Shown: positions 30,765-37,359 of the stretch, piece after piece
Layout: each line of letters opens with the position of its first letter
Position numbering within the stretch: the stretch's first letter is position 1
NCBI RefSeq assembly: GCF_900176005.1
Contig: NZ_LT838272.1
Location: 2,561,587 to 2,625,586 of the forward strand
DNA length: 64,000 nucleotides
Direction: 5' to 3'
Source: Thermanaeromonas toyohensis ToBE
GTDB taxonomy: Bacteria > Bacillota > DSM-521 > Neomoorellales > Neomoorellaceae
Position numbers and translations under genes: made by a program
Notes under the pieces: generated by a model
What the model saw: the letters and a program-made list of their open reading frames with translations, nothing else
The model's database searches: none
Told to the model about the DNA's origin: nothing

Positions 30765-31100
30765 TTAAAAATTGAGCAGCTTATACAGTTCCCCCGCCAC
30801 AATAAACGTGTTTTCCTTTGTAGTTAAGATGGGTATCCCTTCGGCATCAGCGCGTCGGCGAGTAGCCTCTTCGGGGTCGCGCCCGCTGGTTACTACTATC
30901 CCTGCAGCATCCACCAGAAGGGCTACGGCTACTATGTTTTCATGGGTTTGAAGGGTAACCCACAAGCACCCGGGAGGTGCGTGGGCGATAACTGCACTCA
31001 AAAGATCCGCCGCGTAACCAGCTAGTACTTCCCTCTCCAAACCCTGGTATCCGGCTACCACTTGTAAACCCAAGCGCGAGGCTATCTCCCCTACCTTCAT
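30765..31100 (-). CDS. DRTGG-domain protein
   Basis: A 111-residue single-domain DRTGG protein beginning MKVGEIASRLGLQVVAGYQGLEREV, with the AGYAADLLSAVIAHAPPGCLWVTLQTHENIVAVALL core and a terminal ADAEGIPILTTKENTF segment. DRTGG domains occur fused to CBS modules and in regulatory proteins, often proposed as ligand sensors; their ligand is not established here. It overlaps the upstream hydrogenase-like gene by 4 bp. Confidence 0.85.
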   Translation of the reverse strand: MKVGEIASRLGLQVVAGYQGLEREVLAGYAADLLSAVIAHAPPGCLWVTLQTHENIVAVALLVDAAGIVVTSGRDPEEATRRRADAEGIPILTTKENTFIVAGELYKLLNF

Positions 31101-32422
31101 GGGAGGTCTCTGCTCCTTTCTGGCTCGGCCATAGAGGGCGGGAGCTTCCTAGCCAACTCCGCAACTTCCTCTGCCAGTACACGCACCCTTTCCCGGAGAA
31201 GAAAAATACAATCTGTATCCACCGCATAGCCCCGTACTATATCTTCAGCTAAGGCTCGGCAATTGGGGGAGCCGCAGGCCCCGCAGTCTAGGCCAGGAAG
31301 AAGCTTCACCGTTTCCTCCAGCCGTTGCATTTTAAGAAGAGCACTGGCAATATCTTCATCTAAGCGTAAGGCTGGACGAGGCTCCAAATCCTTTTCCCTC
31401 CACCAACTCCCCCGGGCTGCCATATCAGCTAGAATTTTTTCTTCAACCTTTTGCTTAGGCAAGGCTTGAAGTAACTCCCCTAGCCGCCGTTTAGCCTCAT
31501 AAGGGTTGCTCACCATTAAGGCCCCTCCCACGCAACCGCCCGGGCACGCCTGGGCTTCCAGATAATCGAAAGGTTCCAGTTGCCCCTTTTCCATAGCTTC
31601 CAATACTTCGATAACATGGTGAATACCATCTACCTCTAAAAGCTTCCCGTACCCCAGGGCTGCGTTTTCTCCACCGCTTCTCCCCCATCCCACCCCATAG
31701 GCCCCCGCTTGAGCTTCCAGGCTCTTCGCCTCTTTAAGGGCTTCGCGAACTTGGCCATATATGGAGAGAATGGGAATAACGCCATCGATCAGTCTTTCCC
31801 CTGCCCCTTGAGTCTGGCGAACAGCAGTAATCTTAGCTGGGCAGGGAGAAAGGAAAAACACTCCAATATTTTCTGGGGGTAACCCCGTGCGGGTGGTGGC
31901 TTCTAACCGTGCGAGACGTGCGGCAACATTGACCGGTGGCTCCACCGGTACCACATGATTAATAAGAGAAGGAAACCGGACCTGGATTAGACTCACTACC
32001 GCCGGGCAGGCTGCAGAAATCATAGGCCGCGGCCGGTCAAGATCTTGTAAAAGCTTTCGCGTAGCCCAGGATACTGCTTCTGCTGCTAGGGCCACTTCAA
32101 AAACGGCATTAAAGCCGATTTTAAGGAGAGCCCCTAAAATCTGAGGTATACCGCCAGACGCCTGGAATTGGGAATAAAAGGATGGAGCAGGTAACGCTAC
32201 TACATAGGAAAAATTATATATTGCCTCCAGGCTATCACCCACAGCTATCTTGGCATGGTTAGGGCAAACCCGAATACACTCTCCACAGTCAATACACCGC
32301 TCTTCTATGATCTGGGCCTTTCCGTCCCGCACCCGGATAGCTTCGGTAGGGCAACGCTTTATGCAGTTAGTGCAACCCTTACACTTATCCCGATCCAGGC
32401 GGACGGAATGAAAGTATTCCAT
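31097..32422 (-). CDS. [FeFe]-hydrogenase-like Fe-S protein (non-catalytic or sensory)
   Basis: Two ferredoxin motifs at the N-terminus (CKGCTNCIKRCP, CIDCGECIRVCP), a hydrogenase large-subunit-like domain (about 75-320), and a C-terminal 4Fe-4S domain (DCGACGSPNCRALAED). H-cluster motifs are altered: SAACPAVV in place of TSCxPGW, SPCPAKITAV in place of MPCxxKxxE, and ACPGGCVGGALM without the GGGQ end. Cluster-binding cysteines are kept but residues for proton transfer and the active-site pocket are not, suggesting a redox or H2 sensor rather than a hydrogenase. It follows the RsbW-like gene closely and overlaps the DRTGG gene. Confidence 0.88.
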   Translation of the reverse strand: MEYFHSVRLDRDKCKGCTNCIKRCPTEAIRVRDGKAQIIEERCIDCGECIRVCPNHAKIAVGDSLEAIYNFSYVVALPAPSFYSQFQASGGIPQILGALLKIGFNAVFEVALAAEAVSWATRKLLQDLDRPRPMISAACPAVVSLIQVRFPSLINHVVPVEPPVNVAARLARLEATTRTGLPPENIGVFFLSPCPAKITAVRQTQGAGERLIDGVIPILSIYGQVREALKEAKSLEAQAGAYGVGWGRSGGENAALGYGKLLEVDGIHHVIEVLEAMEKGQLEPFDYLEAQACPGGCVGGALMVSNPYEAKRRLGELLQALPKQKVEEKILADMAARGSWWREKDLEPRPALRLDEDIASALLKMQRLEETVKLLPGLDCGACGSPNCRALAEDIVRGYAVDTDCIFLLRERVRVLAEEVAELARKLPPSMAEPERSRDLP

Positions 32423-32433
32423 CCTCCTCTACC

Positions 32434-32889
32434 TCAATCCCGGAAACCCGTAGGATAAAATTCTATGTGTAAAGAAGTCCCCCGGCCAACCTCCGATTTT
32501 ATCTCTAACACATCAGCACATGCCTTAATATTAGGCAACCCCATTCCTGCCCCGAACCCCATTTCCCGCACTTCCGGGGGTGCCGTAGAGTATCCTTCTT
32601 GCATGGCTAGTTCAATATCGGGAATACCAGGGCCTTCATCCTCGGCTACAAGGACTATTTTTTGCGGTTCTATCTTAACCCTTAGTTCCCCCCGGTAAGC
32701 ATGGATTATCACATTAGTTTCCGCTTCAAAGGTAGCCACGGCCACCCGCCTAACTAGCTCCGGGGAAAACCCTACCTGTTGTAGTACTCGTTTTAACTTC
32801 CCGGCCACCTCTCCAGCGGCCTTAAAATTCCTACCCTGGACAGGATATACCAGCTCCAGGAGCAATGGCGCTTCACCAAGCTTTACCAA
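32434..32889 (-). CDS. RsbW-like anti-sigma/serine kinase ATPase
   Basis: A 151-residue GHKL ATPase of the anti-sigma-factor type. It has the N-box FEAETNVIIHAY, EDEGPGIPDIELAM and GMGLPNIK plus the final GRGTSLHI. Family members bind a sigma factor or phosphorylate an anti-anti-sigma serine. No sigma or STAS gene accompanies it in this window, so the partner is unknown. It is the first gene of the hydrogenase operon; a TTG start at 32889, with a Rex-like site 18 bases upstream and a sigma-54-like promoter farther up. Confidence 0.85.
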   Translation of the reverse strand: MVKLGEAPLLLELVYPVQGRNFKAAGEVAGKLKRVLQQVGFSPELVRRVAVATFEAETNVIIHAYRGELRVKIEPQKIVLVAEDEGPGIPDIELAMQEGYSTAPPEVREMGFGAGMGLPNIKACADVLEIKSEVGRGTSLHIEFYPTGFRD

Positions 32890-33024: not shown

Positions 33025-34080
33025 TCAATTTTCTGTGAGGGGTCGTAGAGCGTGACCTGGACCCCGGCCTATCCGACGGCCCAAAGAGTGGATCATCCCT
33101 TCCAGGCAATAACGGCAATCCGCAGGTTCTTCATTGACACATATCTTGCCAGGGTAAATCTGGTAGTCTCCCCGGTACTTCCTGGGGGTAAGATTCGGCA
33201 TAACTACGTTCGCACCACGCTGGAGGGCGAGCTGCCGACCATTAGGTGACAAAGTACCTACAGCGGTGGTAGCTGGTAGATGGGCCCATGGTAAGACCAG
33301 ACGAGCCACAGCCAATACCCGGTAGGTCAATTCCAAGCTACCAGCCGGATAACTTCCTAAGGGAGTGTCTGGATGGGGGATAAAGGGACCTATGCCTGCC
33401 ATCTCTACCCTAAGCTTACGTAAAAGGAGAAGATCATCGGCCAGATCTTCCAAGGTCTGGCCGGGAAGGCCTACGATGTTTCCCGAGCCCACCTGGTAAC
33501 CTAGCTCCCGTAGCCACTGTAGGCAGGTTATCCGTTCCTCCCAGCTCATGCCGGGATGCAGCCTATGATAAAGCCTAGGATTAGCCGTTTCATGCTTAAG
33601 GAGGTACCGGTCAGCGCCAGCCTCGCGCCAAAGGGCATACTCCTCCCGCGATCTTTCTCCCACGCAAAGGGTCACCGCCAGACCCATTCCCTTAATAGTA
33701 GCTACTAACTCGGCTAGCATCTCTGCCGAATACCACGTATCTTCTCCGGACTGGAGCACTACTGTACCATAGCCCAGCTCCACGGCCATCCGGGCGCTCT
33801 TAAGGATCTCCTCTTTTTCCATGCGGTAGCGCCGCAGACGCCTATTATCCGCCCGTAGTCCACAATAGTGGCAAAGCCGCCGGCAGTGGTTAGAAAATTC
33901 TATGACCCCCCGCAAGTGTACCTCTTCACCTACATACCGGGCGCGGAAGTTATCGGCCTCCCGGTAAAGGGCCTCCTCTTCTTCACCGGGCCGAGCTGAA
34001 AGAAGGATTATAAGAGAGGCTTTGTCAGGTTCCTCCCCTTGTATTATCCTAGATAGAGCAGTAGCAAATTCCTTACGCAA
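33025..34080 (-). CDS. hydE: [FeFe]-hydrogenase maturase HydE (radical SAM)
   Basis: Radical SAM enzyme needed to build the 2Fe subcluster. The SAM-binding CX3CX2C motif lies in SNHCRRLCHYCGLR (about residue 60). It also shows VLQSGEDTWY, the GIGPFIPHPDTPLG loop and a C-terminal CRYCLEG motif. 351 residues is usual. TTG start. It belongs with the TM1266-like gene and hydG in one minus-strand unit, hydG first. Confidence 0.93.
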   Translation of the reverse strand: MRKEFATALSRIIQGEEPDKASLIILLSARPGEEEEALYREADNFRARYVGEEVHLRGVIEFSNHCRRLCHYCGLRADNRRLRRYRMEKEEILKSARMAVELGYGTVVLQSGEDTWYSAEMLAELVATIKGMGLAVTLCVGERSREEYALWREAGADRYLLKHETANPRLYHRLHPGMSWEERITCLQWLRELGYQVGSGNIVGLPGQTLEDLADDLLLLRKLRVEMAGIGPFIPHPDTPLGSYPAGSLELTYRVLAVARLVLPWAHLPATTAVGTLSPNGRQLALQRGANVVMPNLTPRKYRGDYQIYPGKICVNEEPADCRYCLEGMIHSLGRRIGRGPGHALRPLTEN

Positions 34081-34157: not shown

Positions 34158-34406
34158 TCATTTTCCCGTTAGGGCTGCCCGTACCTTTACCCCCGGTAGG
34201 CTCCCCAACTTGCCCGTAAGAGCACCCACAACATCTGTACTTCCATCCACAATCAAAGCGATGACCGCTACCCCTCTCTCGCGATAAGGGACACCCATAC
34301 GGCCCACAATATAGTCGCCGTAATCGCTTAAGACAGCATTTACCCGCGCCGCTACCGCTTCCCGATCTTCTATAACTATCCCTATAACACCAATCCTCCG
34401 CTCCAC
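34158..34406 (-). CDS. TM1266-family putative iron-only hydrogenase regulator
   Basis: An 82-residue ACT/NikR-C-like protein beginning MERRIGVIGIVIEDREAVAARV, with GDYIVGRMGVPYRERGVAVIALIVDG and a terminal PGVKVRAALTGK. These are characteristic of the TM1266 family, annotated as a regulator of [FeFe]-hydrogenase maturation and nearly always between hydG and hydE, as here. No DNA-binding domain is visible, so it may regulate by protein contact or by binding a ligand. Function is inferred from context. Confidence 0.9.
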   Translation of the reverse strand: MERRIGVIGIVIEDREAVAARVNAVLSDYGDYIVGRMGVPYRERGVAVIALIVDGSTDVVGALTGKLGSLPGVKVRAALTGK

Positions 34407-34478: not shown

Positions 34479-35891
34479 TTAAAAATAAAGGTCTCGTTCG
34501 CCCTCTTCTATGCGCTTAAGCCTCCTTAGGGTTTCTTTACGCACAGCTTCATTAGGTATCTCCTCAAGATGTCGACTTATGATTTCCTCGCCTATCTTAC
34601 GCGTCTCTGGAGTAGCATAATCAAGGAGGTATTCTTTAAAGGTCAGGAGGGCATTAGGCTGGCATACGTTCTGGATCTCGCCTGATTTGGCCAGAGCCAT
34701 AAAACGCTCCCCCGTGCGGCCCCGCCGGTAACAAGCAGTACAATAGCTGGGCAGATAACCCCGCTGACACAGATCCCTAATAACCTCGTCGGGATGCCGA
34801 CGATCTTCCACTTCAAATTGGGGCGTTTCCTCTTGTACCTGGGTATAATGCCGCCCATAGCCACCTACCCCTGTACAGGAGCCCGCGCTGAGCTGGGAAA
34901 CTCCTAGCCTAAACAGTACAGTCCGAAATTCAGGGCTTTCCCTGGTGGAAAGGATAAGTCCTGTATAGGGCACCGCTAAGCGGATTACTGCCACAGCCTT
35001 TTTAAACTCCTCATCAGAAACCAAGAAAGGAAAATCCTCAAGGGATACGCCCTTAGCCGGGCGTAGACGTGGGACAGATATGGTATGGGGGCCTACTCCG
35101 AAGGTTTTCTCGAGGTGTCTTGCGTGATAAAGAAGGCCTAGCACCTCGAATTTATAGTCATAAAGTCCGAACAATACTCCTAGCCCTACATCATCAATCC
35201 CTGCTTCCATAGCCCTGTCCATGGCCGTAGTATGCCAGTCGTAATCGGCTTTAGGACCGGAAGGATGCATATATTCATAAGTGGGTCGATGGTAAGTCTC
35301 CTGGAAGAGCACATAAGTACCGATACCTGCTTTTTTAAGCTCCCGGTACTCATCCACCGTGGTAGCAGCGATGTTTACATTCACCCGGCGTATATTTCCG
35401 TTTTTTTCCGTTATCCGGTATATCCGGCGGATAACTTCCACCACATAATCCAAAGGACAATTTTGAGGGTCTTCCCCCGCCTCTACAGCCAGACGTTTAT
35501 GTCCAAGGGATTCTAAAATCCGTACCTCCCGTTCCAATTCATCCCAAGCGAGGCGACGTCTAGTGAACTTATTATCCCGGCGATACCCGCAATACCGGCA
35601 GTTATTAATGCAATAGTCACTAATATATAGCGGAGCAAAAAGCACCATGCGCTTCCCATAGATCTTTTCTTTTATCTCCCCTGCAACAGCAAAAATCCTT
35701 TTCCACAAGGCTTTCTCTTTGGCCTGAAGCAACACTGCTACTTCATTAGGCTCAAGGCCTTTGGCTTCCCGGGCTTTCTCCACAATTTTTTCGGCTAACT
35801 CAGAAGGTGCACCTAAAGCTTCCGCCAACAGCCCTTCGATCTCTTCCTGAGGTATAAAATCTACCTGGTAATTATGCCTCGGAATATACAT
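34479..35891 (-). CDS. hydG: [FeFe]-hydrogenase maturase HydG (radical SAM tyrosine lyase)
   Basis: Splits tyrosine to give CO and CN for the H-cluster. SAM-cluster motif CX3CX2C in SDYCINNCRYCGYRRDN (about residue 95). C-terminal second-cluster motif in CTACYRRGRTG. Other marks are LAVEAGEDP, VNVNIAATT, and LGVLFGLYDYKFE. A 470-residue protein of normal length. AAGGAGGGA lies 10 bases before the ATG. The third maturase HydF (GTPase) is not in the window. The gene follows a long attenuator leader. Confidence 0.96.
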   Translation of the reverse strand: MYIPRHNYQVDFIPQEEIEGLLAEALGAPSELAEKIVEKAREAKGLEPNEVAVLLQAKEKALWKRIFAVAGEIKEKIYGKRMVLFAPLYISDYCINNCRYCGYRRDNKFTRRRLAWDELEREVRILESLGHKRLAVEAGEDPQNCPLDYVVEVIRRIYRITEKNGNIRRVNVNIAATTVDEYRELKKAGIGTYVLFQETYHRPTYEYMHPSGPKADYDWHTTAMDRAMEAGIDDVGLGVLFGLYDYKFEVLGLLYHARHLEKTFGVGPHTISVPRLRPAKGVSLEDFPFLVSDEEFKKAVAVIRLAVPYTGLILSTRESPEFRTVLFRLGVSQLSAGSCTGVGGYGRHYTQVQEETPQFEVEDRRHPDEVIRDLCQRGYLPSYCTACYRRGRTGERFMALAKSGEIQNVCQPNALLTFKEYLLDYATPETRKIGEEIISRHLEEIPNEAVRKETLRRLKRIEEGERDLYF

Positions 35892-35910: not shown

Positions 35911-35958
35911 ACTAAAAATAAAAAAGCTTACCCACTACCTGGGAATAGCTGGGTAAGC
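35911..35958 (-). terminator. Intrinsic terminator in the hydG leader
   Basis: Minus strand: GCTTACCCA/TGGGTAAGC 9-bp stem (35926-35934 with 35950-35958), extended by a CTA/TAG inner stem, followed by a T-rich tail. It ends about 20 bases before hydG, so it would stop hydG transcription unless bypassed. Confidence 0.8.
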
Positions 35959-36190
35959 CCTTGTTACCCATAATCCATATCCTTTCCCTCCCCTTGATAT
36001 TCAGGACCCCATGGAAGCTTAAGGTCAGAGACTTGCTCTTCCCTGGTTCCCCTCATCGCAGGATTAAGGTCTCCATCCTCCCAGGCGGGCATCCCTAGCC
36101 TAAATTTGTCGCCAAATTAATACCTCTGTTAATACTTCTGTCGCTAGGATAACCCTTTCGAGTTTGGCTACCCTTAACCCACCCAGTCAG
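35950..36190 (-). promoter_or_regulatory. Putative attenuator/riboswitch leader of the hydG operon
   Basis: The hydG leader (up to about 300 nt) ends in the terminator at 35911-35958. The 5' arm of that terminator is also complementary to TGGGTAA (antiterminator: arms 35950-35956 and 35964-35970), so the two hairpins are mutually exclusive. Upstream RNA shows several local stems (CCTAGC/GCTAGG at 36094-36149, and AGAG/CTCT) and purine-rich GGGGAACC and ATGGGGTCCTGAAT. A weak minus-strand promoter-like pair at 36204-36233 may start it. No known class was recognised. The rest of the ~590-base gap, to the + strand promoter at 36381-36408, holds no gene. Confidence 0.6.
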
Positions 36191-36380
36191 ATTGTTCTAG
36201 TATTATTTTGCACAATCATATATAAAAAATCAAGTTAAAGTGGGTATAAGCATTTATTTTTATTATGCATCAACACTATTGTAATCGTATTCCGCCAAAA
36301 ACAAATCCCTTTAGGGACCCATGGGGAAGCCGCACAGTTCCATAGCCGCTTTAAAATGTTCGTTTATATTCCTGGTAAAC

Positions 36381-36484: not shown

Positions 36485-36784
36485 TTGAGGTTGCCGTCTT
36501 TTTTAAGAAAATATTTTTGGGACGTCTCTTTTGACAGCCTGGATAGTCGGAACGACTCGTATTTTATCCTCGAACGGTTACTGGAATACGGCGATGCCCG
36601 AGCCATTCAGTGGGTTTTGAGCCAGTATAGAGATGAAGAGCTCCTGAGAGTAATCAAAACCAGCCCTAGGCTATCTGCTAAAACTGGCCATTTTTGGTGT
36701 TGTTATTACCATCTTCAGGAGGATGAGCTTAAGTGTTTGCAGCCGCCCTCCCATCGCAGGGACAGCAAGTACTGGAATTATTAA
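36485..36784 (+). CDS. DUF6922-like protein, putative antitoxin
   Basis: A 99-residue TTG-started protein opening MRLPSFLRKYFWDVSFDSLD, then ILERLLEYGDARAIQWVLSQYRDEEL and a LSAKTGHFW stretch. These match DUF6922, often next to an AbiEii-like gene. GGCAGGAG lies 8 bases before TTG 36485. Its end overlaps the AbiEii-like gene, so the two form an operon-like pair. The antitoxin role is inferred from context; no HTH is seen. Confidence 0.75.
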   Translation: MRLPSFLRKYFWDVSFDSLDSRNDSYFILERLLEYGDARAIQWVLSQYRDEELLRVIKTSPRLSAKTGHFWCCYYHLQEDELKCLQPPSHRRDSKYWNY

Positions 36785-37359
36785 GCACTAGTGGTTTATT
36801 GCAAAATTTTTATCTGGCAGGCGGTACTGCCTTGGCCCTGCACCTGGGCCATCGCCTTTCCGAAGACCTGGACTTCTTTTCCCCTGCTATAGTGGATACC
36901 TTTATGCTCAAACAAAGGCTCCAGGACCTAGGGGATTTTCAAGTGCTGGAAGAAAAATGGGGTACCCTTCATGGAATTCTCCGGGAAACCAAAGTCAGTT
37001 TCCTATATTACCGGTATCCCCTTCTTTTTCCACTTACTACATTCAGGGGTTGCTCAGTGGCATCTCCTGAAGATATTGCCCCCATGAAAATAGAAGCCAT
37101 CGCCTCGCGGGGCAGCAAAAAAGATTTTTACGACCTGTATTTTATCGCCCAGGAAATTGCAAACTTACGCCAGTGCCTGGAACTCTACCAGCGTAAGTTT
37201 GCAGGAACCAACTTTAACTTATATCACGTGTTGAAAAGCCTTACCTACTTTGCCGATGCTGAAAAGGAAAAGGACCCTATCTTATTGCGCCCTGTTAGTT
37301 GGCCCCAAATAAAGAAGTACTTCGAACAAGTTGTGCCCCCGCTTTTAACCTGCATATAA
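36733..37359 (+). CDS. AbiEii/AbiGii-family nucleotidyltransferase toxin-like protein
   Basis: A 208-residue protein with the AbiEii signature FYLAGGTALALHLGHRLSEDLDFFS, where GGTAL and the DLD pair are the nucleotidyltransferase motif, then KIEAIASRGSKKDFYDLY. AbiEii proteins (type IV toxins) transfer nucleotides to tRNA or other targets and are usually paired with AbiEi; here the partner is DUF6922-like instead. GTG start with AGGAGG 10 bases upstream and a 52-bp overlap with the DUF6922 gene. Complete, with no truncation seen. Confidence 0.82.
   Translation: MFAAALPSQGQQVLELLSTSGLLQNFYLAGGTALALHLGHRLSEDLDFFSPAIVDTFMLKQRLQDLGDFQVLEEKWGTLHGILRETKVSFLYYRYPLLFPLTTFRGCSVASPEDIAPMKIEAIASRGSKKDFYDLYFIAQEIANLRQCLELYQRKFAGTNFNLYHVLKSLTYFADAEKEKDPILLRPVSWPQIKKYFEQVVPPLLTCI

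Follow-up and report, generated by a model that had tools for sequence, protein, structure and literature searches.

A two-hairpin leader RNA upstream of [FeFe]-hydrogenase maturation genes, with TM1266 as its candidate sensor

The minus-strand leader of the hydrogenase maturation gene hydG in Thermanaeromonas toyohensis ToBE can, with high confidence, be assigned to a class of cis-regulatory RNAs in which two hairpins, hereafter P1 and P2, are followed by a terminator platform. Covariance models that were built without the window (the 64,000-nucleotide stretch of DNA analyzed here) and then widened recovered this RNA from about 70 of the 398 genomes sampled across the phylum, and from one Solidesulfovibrio besides. 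Relative to Rfam 15 and the open-access literature, the class is so far uncatalogued: no match at the gathering threshold of Rfam 15 was obtained for the window or over 20 further leader loci, a search of the same release at E ≤ 5 to 10 returned nothing relevant (chance matches such as MEG3 and SpR10), and no description of the class was found in the open-access literature. As the best explanation of the whole, we propose a TM1266-dependent transcription attenuation of [FeFe]-hydrogenase maturation operons, a proposal that we regard as evenly balanced between right and wrong.

A first-pass annotation had already proposed an attenuator leader of unknown class in front of the H-cluster maturation genes, and the check that it had suggested, a covariance search of relatives and of Rfam, bore this proposal out, the leader being conserved, covarying, and outside Rfam.

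The hydG leader and its two hairpins

The genes downstream of this leader are all encoded on the minus strand and comprise hydG (34479–35891; an H-cluster radical SAM maturase of 470 aa; TIGR03955, E 3.9e-197), a TM1266-family protein of 82 aa that is a candidate regulator (34158–34406; TIGR03959, E 7.3e-34; PF21699; solved relative 2nzc), and hydE, also an H-cluster radical SAM maturase (33025–34080; TIGR03956, E 1.5e-113). Further along the same strand, 3' of hydE, an anti-sigma-like ATPase, a Fe_hyd_lg_C hydrogenase-like protein, and a DRTGG protein (30765–32889) form a gene set with a likeness to a sensory-hydrogenase cluster. On the other side of the leader, and pointing away from it, a DUF6922 protein and an AbiEii-type nucleotidyltransferase are encoded on the plus strand (36485–37359), a pair that is type IV toxin–antitoxin-like. 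At a locus away from the hydG operon, several Moorellaceae also encode another HydG-like protein, which has diverged from the first (E about 1e-128 to 1e-141; for example, G000:C1:755488-756777).

Upstream of hydG, the elements succeed one another on the minus strand in the order P1, P2, Shine–Dalgarno, four-codon ORF, terminator, hydG, and positions 36191 to 35986 make up the conserved core of the RNA. P1 is made of a 5' strand (TCT-GA-CTGGGTGGG; 36178–36191), located by the covariance model R3 described below, and of a 3' strand (CCCGCCTGG-GA-GGA; 36076–36089), located by covariation; positions 36191–36189 pair with 36078–36076 and positions 36186–36178 with 36089–36081, all 12 of these 12 pairs being standard. 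P2 associates a 5' strand (TCCTGCGATGAGGGG; 36049–36063), taken from the R2 and R3 alignments, with a 3' strand (TCCTGAATATCAAGGGGAGGG; 35986–36006) that is G-rich in most members of the class and whose end (35995–35986) is also Shine–Dalgarno-like. Compact members of the class span about 85 nt, and the window copy is such a compact RNA enlarged by two insertions, one of 88 nt in the P1 loop (36090–36177), specific to the window and missing from compact members, and one of 42 nt in the apical loop of P2 (36007–36048), a loop that is short and often GNRA-like in most members; extensions of this length are found in no other member. The nested CCTAGC/GCTAGG and AGAG/CTCT stems described in the first-pass annotation are real but confined to these two insertions, the former (36148–36143 / 36099–36094) lying inside the P1 loop extension. 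As for GGGGAACC and CCTGAAT, they are not the unpaired purines that they had been taken for, since the GGG and CCU strands of P2 lie within them.

P1 and P2 stand one after the other; both are pseudo-symmetric, and their helices covary. They share a common plan (CCUGA, variable helix, purine pair, GGG, loop, CCUG(A), helix partner, AAGGG), which in P2 takes the form CCUGA-helix-AAGGGG-loop-CCUGA-helix'-AAGGGG, and the window itself has covarying hairpins with the YCUGA..RAGGR and CCUG..AGGG..CCUG..GGG strands by which the class is recognized; several lineages keep the P2 hairpin alone (L202, L204, L209, L227). Across 45 aligned members, 20 of the 23 pairs present changes on both sides, double-changed cells number 198 against 67 ± 7 in shuffles, and 84% of cells are paired against 45–57% once the helices are shifted by one or two columns, counts that are all inflated because this alignment was fitted to the model. 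In a MAFFT alignment of 12 sequences, double changes amount to 30 against 8.3. The folding energy of the leader in the window exceeds chance only modestly (z −1.99); it is on this conservation and covariation that the reality of the leader rests.

Immediately upstream of P1 and abutting it, a promoter- or operator-like block (TTGTRCAAAATA..ACTAGMACAA; 36192–36240, minus strand) is near identical in the sister genome (G017) and recognizable in G014, in G018, and in Moorella-like genomes; it is kept across Moorellaceae even when the downstream genes differ. A promoter combined with an operator is a possible function for this block. The enrichment of −10 boxes 5' of P1 was not significant (p 0.11).

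Distribution and gene context of the RNA

A DNA search of the order gave an 83% match at the hydG leader of the sister genome and, in G014, located the 5' block of the leader 1.7 kb ahead of hydG. The leader RNA precedes hydG in G000, G017, and G018 and precedes TM1266-hydE-hydG in Moorella-like genomes, and another search, again of the order, detected it before TM1266 in G016. For the wider survey, in which genomes were sampled and E-values are rough, a model of nine compact sequences excluding the window (R1) was searched against the 398 whole genomes of the phylum. At E ≤ 0.01, it matched 13 genomes, namely, ten Moorellaceae, where hydG/TM1266 leaders were the only matches, and three distant genomes (G292, G063, G351), where the matches stand immediately 5' of TM1266 or hydG. 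A second model of 12 sequences (R2) matched 59 genomes at E ≤ 1; at E ≤ 0.06, 37 of its 38 matches lie directly 5' of TM1266, hydE, or hydG, and the remaining one (L190) lies 5' of an SsuC-like ABC permease at a contig end. The third model (R3; 45 sequences) counts the window among its rows, the same structure being defined by R1 without it; it matches the window at 36191–35986 on the minus strand (41.8 bits, E 9.5e-9) and also matches the hydG leader of G020. Its matches L309–L316 (E 0.007–0.09) were rejected, as they fall within coding sequence or simple repeats, and a doubtful 13-bit match (L275) was recorded at the hydG of a genome devoid of TM1266. When 80 named hydG loci were scanned with a P2-like regular expression, specific matches were too scarce for this pattern to be of use alone.

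Among the carriers identified through a HydG search are Moorella sulfitireducens, Caloranaerobacter azorensis, a Pelotomaculum, and Syntrophomonadaceae MAGs, as well as, outside the phylum, Solidesulfovibrio magneticus (Desulfobacterota). Overall, the gene that follows the RNA is more often TM1266 or hydE than hydG and, in a few cases, belongs to an importer. The link to the hydG operon put forward in the first-pass annotation was drawn too narrowly, the RNA being specific neither to hydG nor to Moorella and Thermanaeromonas.

With regard to importers, the RNA was found 5' of three ABC operons of the NMT1/SsuA type: a permease-ATPase-SBP-TM1266-hydE operon of the NitT/TauT kind (L306, in G041), an operon that includes TM1266 in a genome with no HydG match (L317, in G132), and the NitT/TauT importer operon with the SsuC-like permease mentioned above (L190, in G302). 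In two other genomes (L304 in G057, L305 in G263), a copy reduced to P2 stands directly 5' of an ECF S component with no assigned substrate, and a related S component comes after TM1266 at L102:564-1079. It is possible that these S components import the signal or the substrate of the regulon. Away from hyd genes, G168 carries a second RNA-plus-terminator (L307, contig C16), followed by a 185-aa protein with no Pfam match and, further on, by a MutS-like ATPase.

TM1266 and metabolites as candidate signals

TM1266 is present in 71 of the 71 genomes that carry the RNA, against a base rate of 206 in 398, the former list being partly curated by context; it is likewise present in 49 of the 49 genomes with an RNA match at E ≤ 0.005, chosen regardless of context. 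Conversely, the RNA occurs in 69 of the 181 genomes that have both hydG and TM1266 and in 0 of the 30 that have hydG without TM1266 (p 3e-6, kinship ignored). A sensitive local search gave the same picture: of 32 further genomes, 16 had the RNA 5' of TM1266 at E ≤ 0.01, whereas none was detected 5' of hydG in 20 genomes devoid of TM1266 (p 1e-4, kinship ignored). The protein is annotated only as a "putative regulator," and its solved relative, 2nzc, is an uncharacterized protein with four chains; TM1266 has an ACT/NikR-C-like fold and, going by the family models, no known DNA-binding domain.

On this basis, TM1266 is predicted to be the sensor, an RNA-binding attenuator protein, a prediction to which we grant slightly less than an even chance. 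Its RNA-binding role is a candidate one, based on co-occurrence, and the RNA and TM1266 could merely mark the same lineages; in addition, the TM1266 genes of the f39 and f93 genomes are located elsewhere, with no RNA detectable beside them, and the occurrence of the RNA 5' of importers is equally compatible with a metabolite sensor.

The latter possibility deserves attention, because a direct riboswitch, in which P1 and P2 would bind a metabolite or ion of H-cluster assembly (an imported precursor, an Fe(CO)(CN) intermediate, iron, SAM, or tyrosine) and set the same terminator and Shine–Dalgarno platform, leaving TM1266 as a co-regulated gene only, is a serious contender, if one that we would not bet on. 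Riboswitch-like traits are indeed present, namely, compact and highly conserved hairpins whose symmetric internal loops are rich in purines, together with an intrinsic terminator, and the RNA also stands before importers (L306, L190, L304, and L305, with an S component after TM1266 in L102). However, a direct riboswitch accounts poorly for the strict co-occurrence of the RNA with TM1266, the lineages that keep P2 only have an RNA that is small for an aptamer and of a size usual for a protein site, and no Rfam aptamer is similar. We therefore favor attenuation by TM1266 over a direct small-molecule riboswitch, since all RNA-bearing genomes have TM1266 and none of the 30 genomes with hydG and no TM1266 has the RNA. 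The two readings are nonetheless compatible, because TM1266 may carry a metabolite.

Expression platform, proposed mechanism, and significance

In the window, an intrinsic terminator (35958–35917, minus strand) lies between the leader and hydG, as expected of an attenuator: its GC-rich stem (35958–35926), with the arms GCTTACCC (35958–35951) and GGGTAAGC (35933–35926) extended to about 14 bp (−18.1 kcal/mol), is followed by a T-tract (35925–35917). The first-pass annotation had recognized this strong terminator and its T-tract, although the latter ends 25 bases, rather than 20, before the ATG of hydG (35891). A terminator follows the RNA within about 10–50 nt in 57–59 of 61 members, and a simpler detector finds one in 49 of the 61 against 20–23 in shuffles.

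Between P2 and the terminator, the window also carries a mini-ORF, ATG GAT TAT GGG TAA (M-D-Y-G-stop; 35964–35978, minus strand), which ends 5 nt before the terminator stem. Of 46 non-redundant members, 26 have a start codon at Shine–Dalgarno spacing at this place, where shuffled sequences give 9.9 ± 2.8 (p < 0.0005), and in about a dozen lineages the stop codon abuts the terminator (MDYG in the window, and MRGYF, MKVTV, MDAS, MPQ, MRG, MRT, MN, and MKGV); other mini-ORFs extend through the terminator, some of them in frame into hydE or TM1266 (L192, L194). A universal mini-ORF had to be rejected, and a ribosome step cannot be universal, because about a third of the members have no clear mini-ORF (e.g., G063, L120, L187, L211) and G017 has no in-frame stop ahead of the terminator. 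Nor do the leader ORFs contain conserved regulatory codons, their peptides being unrelated and reduced in some cases to M-stop or M-N-stop, which makes an amino-acid-sensing leader peptide unlikely. It is plausible that a ribosome holds the terminator open when the Shine–Dalgarno is free.

As regards antitermination, the terminator arm is more complementary to the whole leader than swapped pairs are (p < 0.0002), at a location that varies among lineages. A single conserved antiterminator formed by the P2 3' strand and its Shine–Dalgarno could not be told apart from swapped pairs (p 0.20) and was discarded. The TGGGTAA/TTACCCA hairpin (35970–35964 / 35956–35950, minus strand), formerly proposed as an exclusive antiterminator, does pair perfectly over 7 bp; it is, however, weak (−7.6 kcal/mol), imperfect even in the sister genome, and limited to Thermanaeromonas-like sequences, other members having no counterpart, and was thus rejected as a conserved switch.

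Could the ribosome alone account for the system? If the Shine–Dalgarno and the mini-ORF sensed translation and P1 and P2 merely gated the Shine–Dalgarno, the spaced ATG in 26 of 46 members and the stops abutting the terminator would be explained, yet the mini-ORF peptides have neither a residue nor a run of codons in common and thus offer no amino-acid sensing, about a third of the members lack a clear ORF, and the covariation of P1 and P2 is left without explanation; we accordingly deem this improbable. The view that nothing is regulated here, the hairpin being an ordinary one for termination or read-through and its complementarity due to chance, has the modest folding energy of the window leader (z −1.99 only) in its favor and is so strongly contradicted by the conservation in about 70 genomes, the covariation, and the gene association that we give it almost no credence.

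Returning to TM1266-dependent attenuation, the protein, produced from the same operon, would act as an oligomer, perhaps with a bound small molecule, and would bind the palindrome-like P1 and P2 hairpins. With both hairpins locked, the Shine–Dalgarno would be hidden, the terminator would form, and transcription would stop; with both free, a ribosome on the mini-ORF would block termination, and hydG, TM1266, and hydE would be made. In some lineages, the P2 strand may instead pair with the terminator arm and avert termination. As to the direction of control, we merely guess that the bound state is the off state, as it would be in feedback control. Still more tentatively, and with some doubt on our part, an orphan TM1266, possibly with a maturation intermediate or an imported precursor, may control both H-cluster operons and orphan importers through this leader RNA, deep-seated in anaerobic bacteria, and a platform of near-minimal ORFs, where the Shine–Dalgarno lies inside a hairpin and ribosome loading decides the fate of the abutting terminator.

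Such a system can be compared with several known ones. PyrR-type systems are protein-dependent attenuators of pyr operons, and as in these, a small candidate regulator is a product of the operon, often of its first gene, and the leader presents a hairpin, possibly a protein site, in more than one copy, then an intrinsic terminator; however, TM1266 is unrelated to PyrR, the RNA consensus and the genes differ, the binding of TM1266 to the RNA is predicted, and the P2 3' strand here doubles as a Shine–Dalgarno. Guanidine-II (mini-ykkC) riboswitches likewise have two short similar hairpins that end near a Shine–Dalgarno or a terminator, but with ACGR loops in place of the symmetric GA/AA internal loops seen here and outside the present context of hydrogenase maturation. 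Leader-peptide attenuators also have a short ORF ending at a terminator; the present class differs from them by its lack of conserved codons, by a covarying hairpin pair upstream, and by the absence of the ORF in about a third of its members. The Wco/Moco Rfam families, finally, have a fold that differs from that of the P1–P2 RNA, and the leader matches none of them, although it shares with them the position of a leader RNA of some hydrogenase-related genes. Some Wco/Moco riboswitches are indeed located 5' of hydrogenase genes (PMC9481103).

For the maturation of [FeFe]-hydrogenase, the open-access literature searched yielded neither a regulator nor a signal. A conserved RNA that tracks TM1266 and the maturation genes across many bacterial families provides a testable handle on both, and by pointing to orphan ECF and ABC importers in the same regulon, it offers a clue to what H-cluster assembly uses as a substrate or signal. 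Another possible use of the RNA is as a genetic part with which to control how much hydrogenase anaerobes produce.
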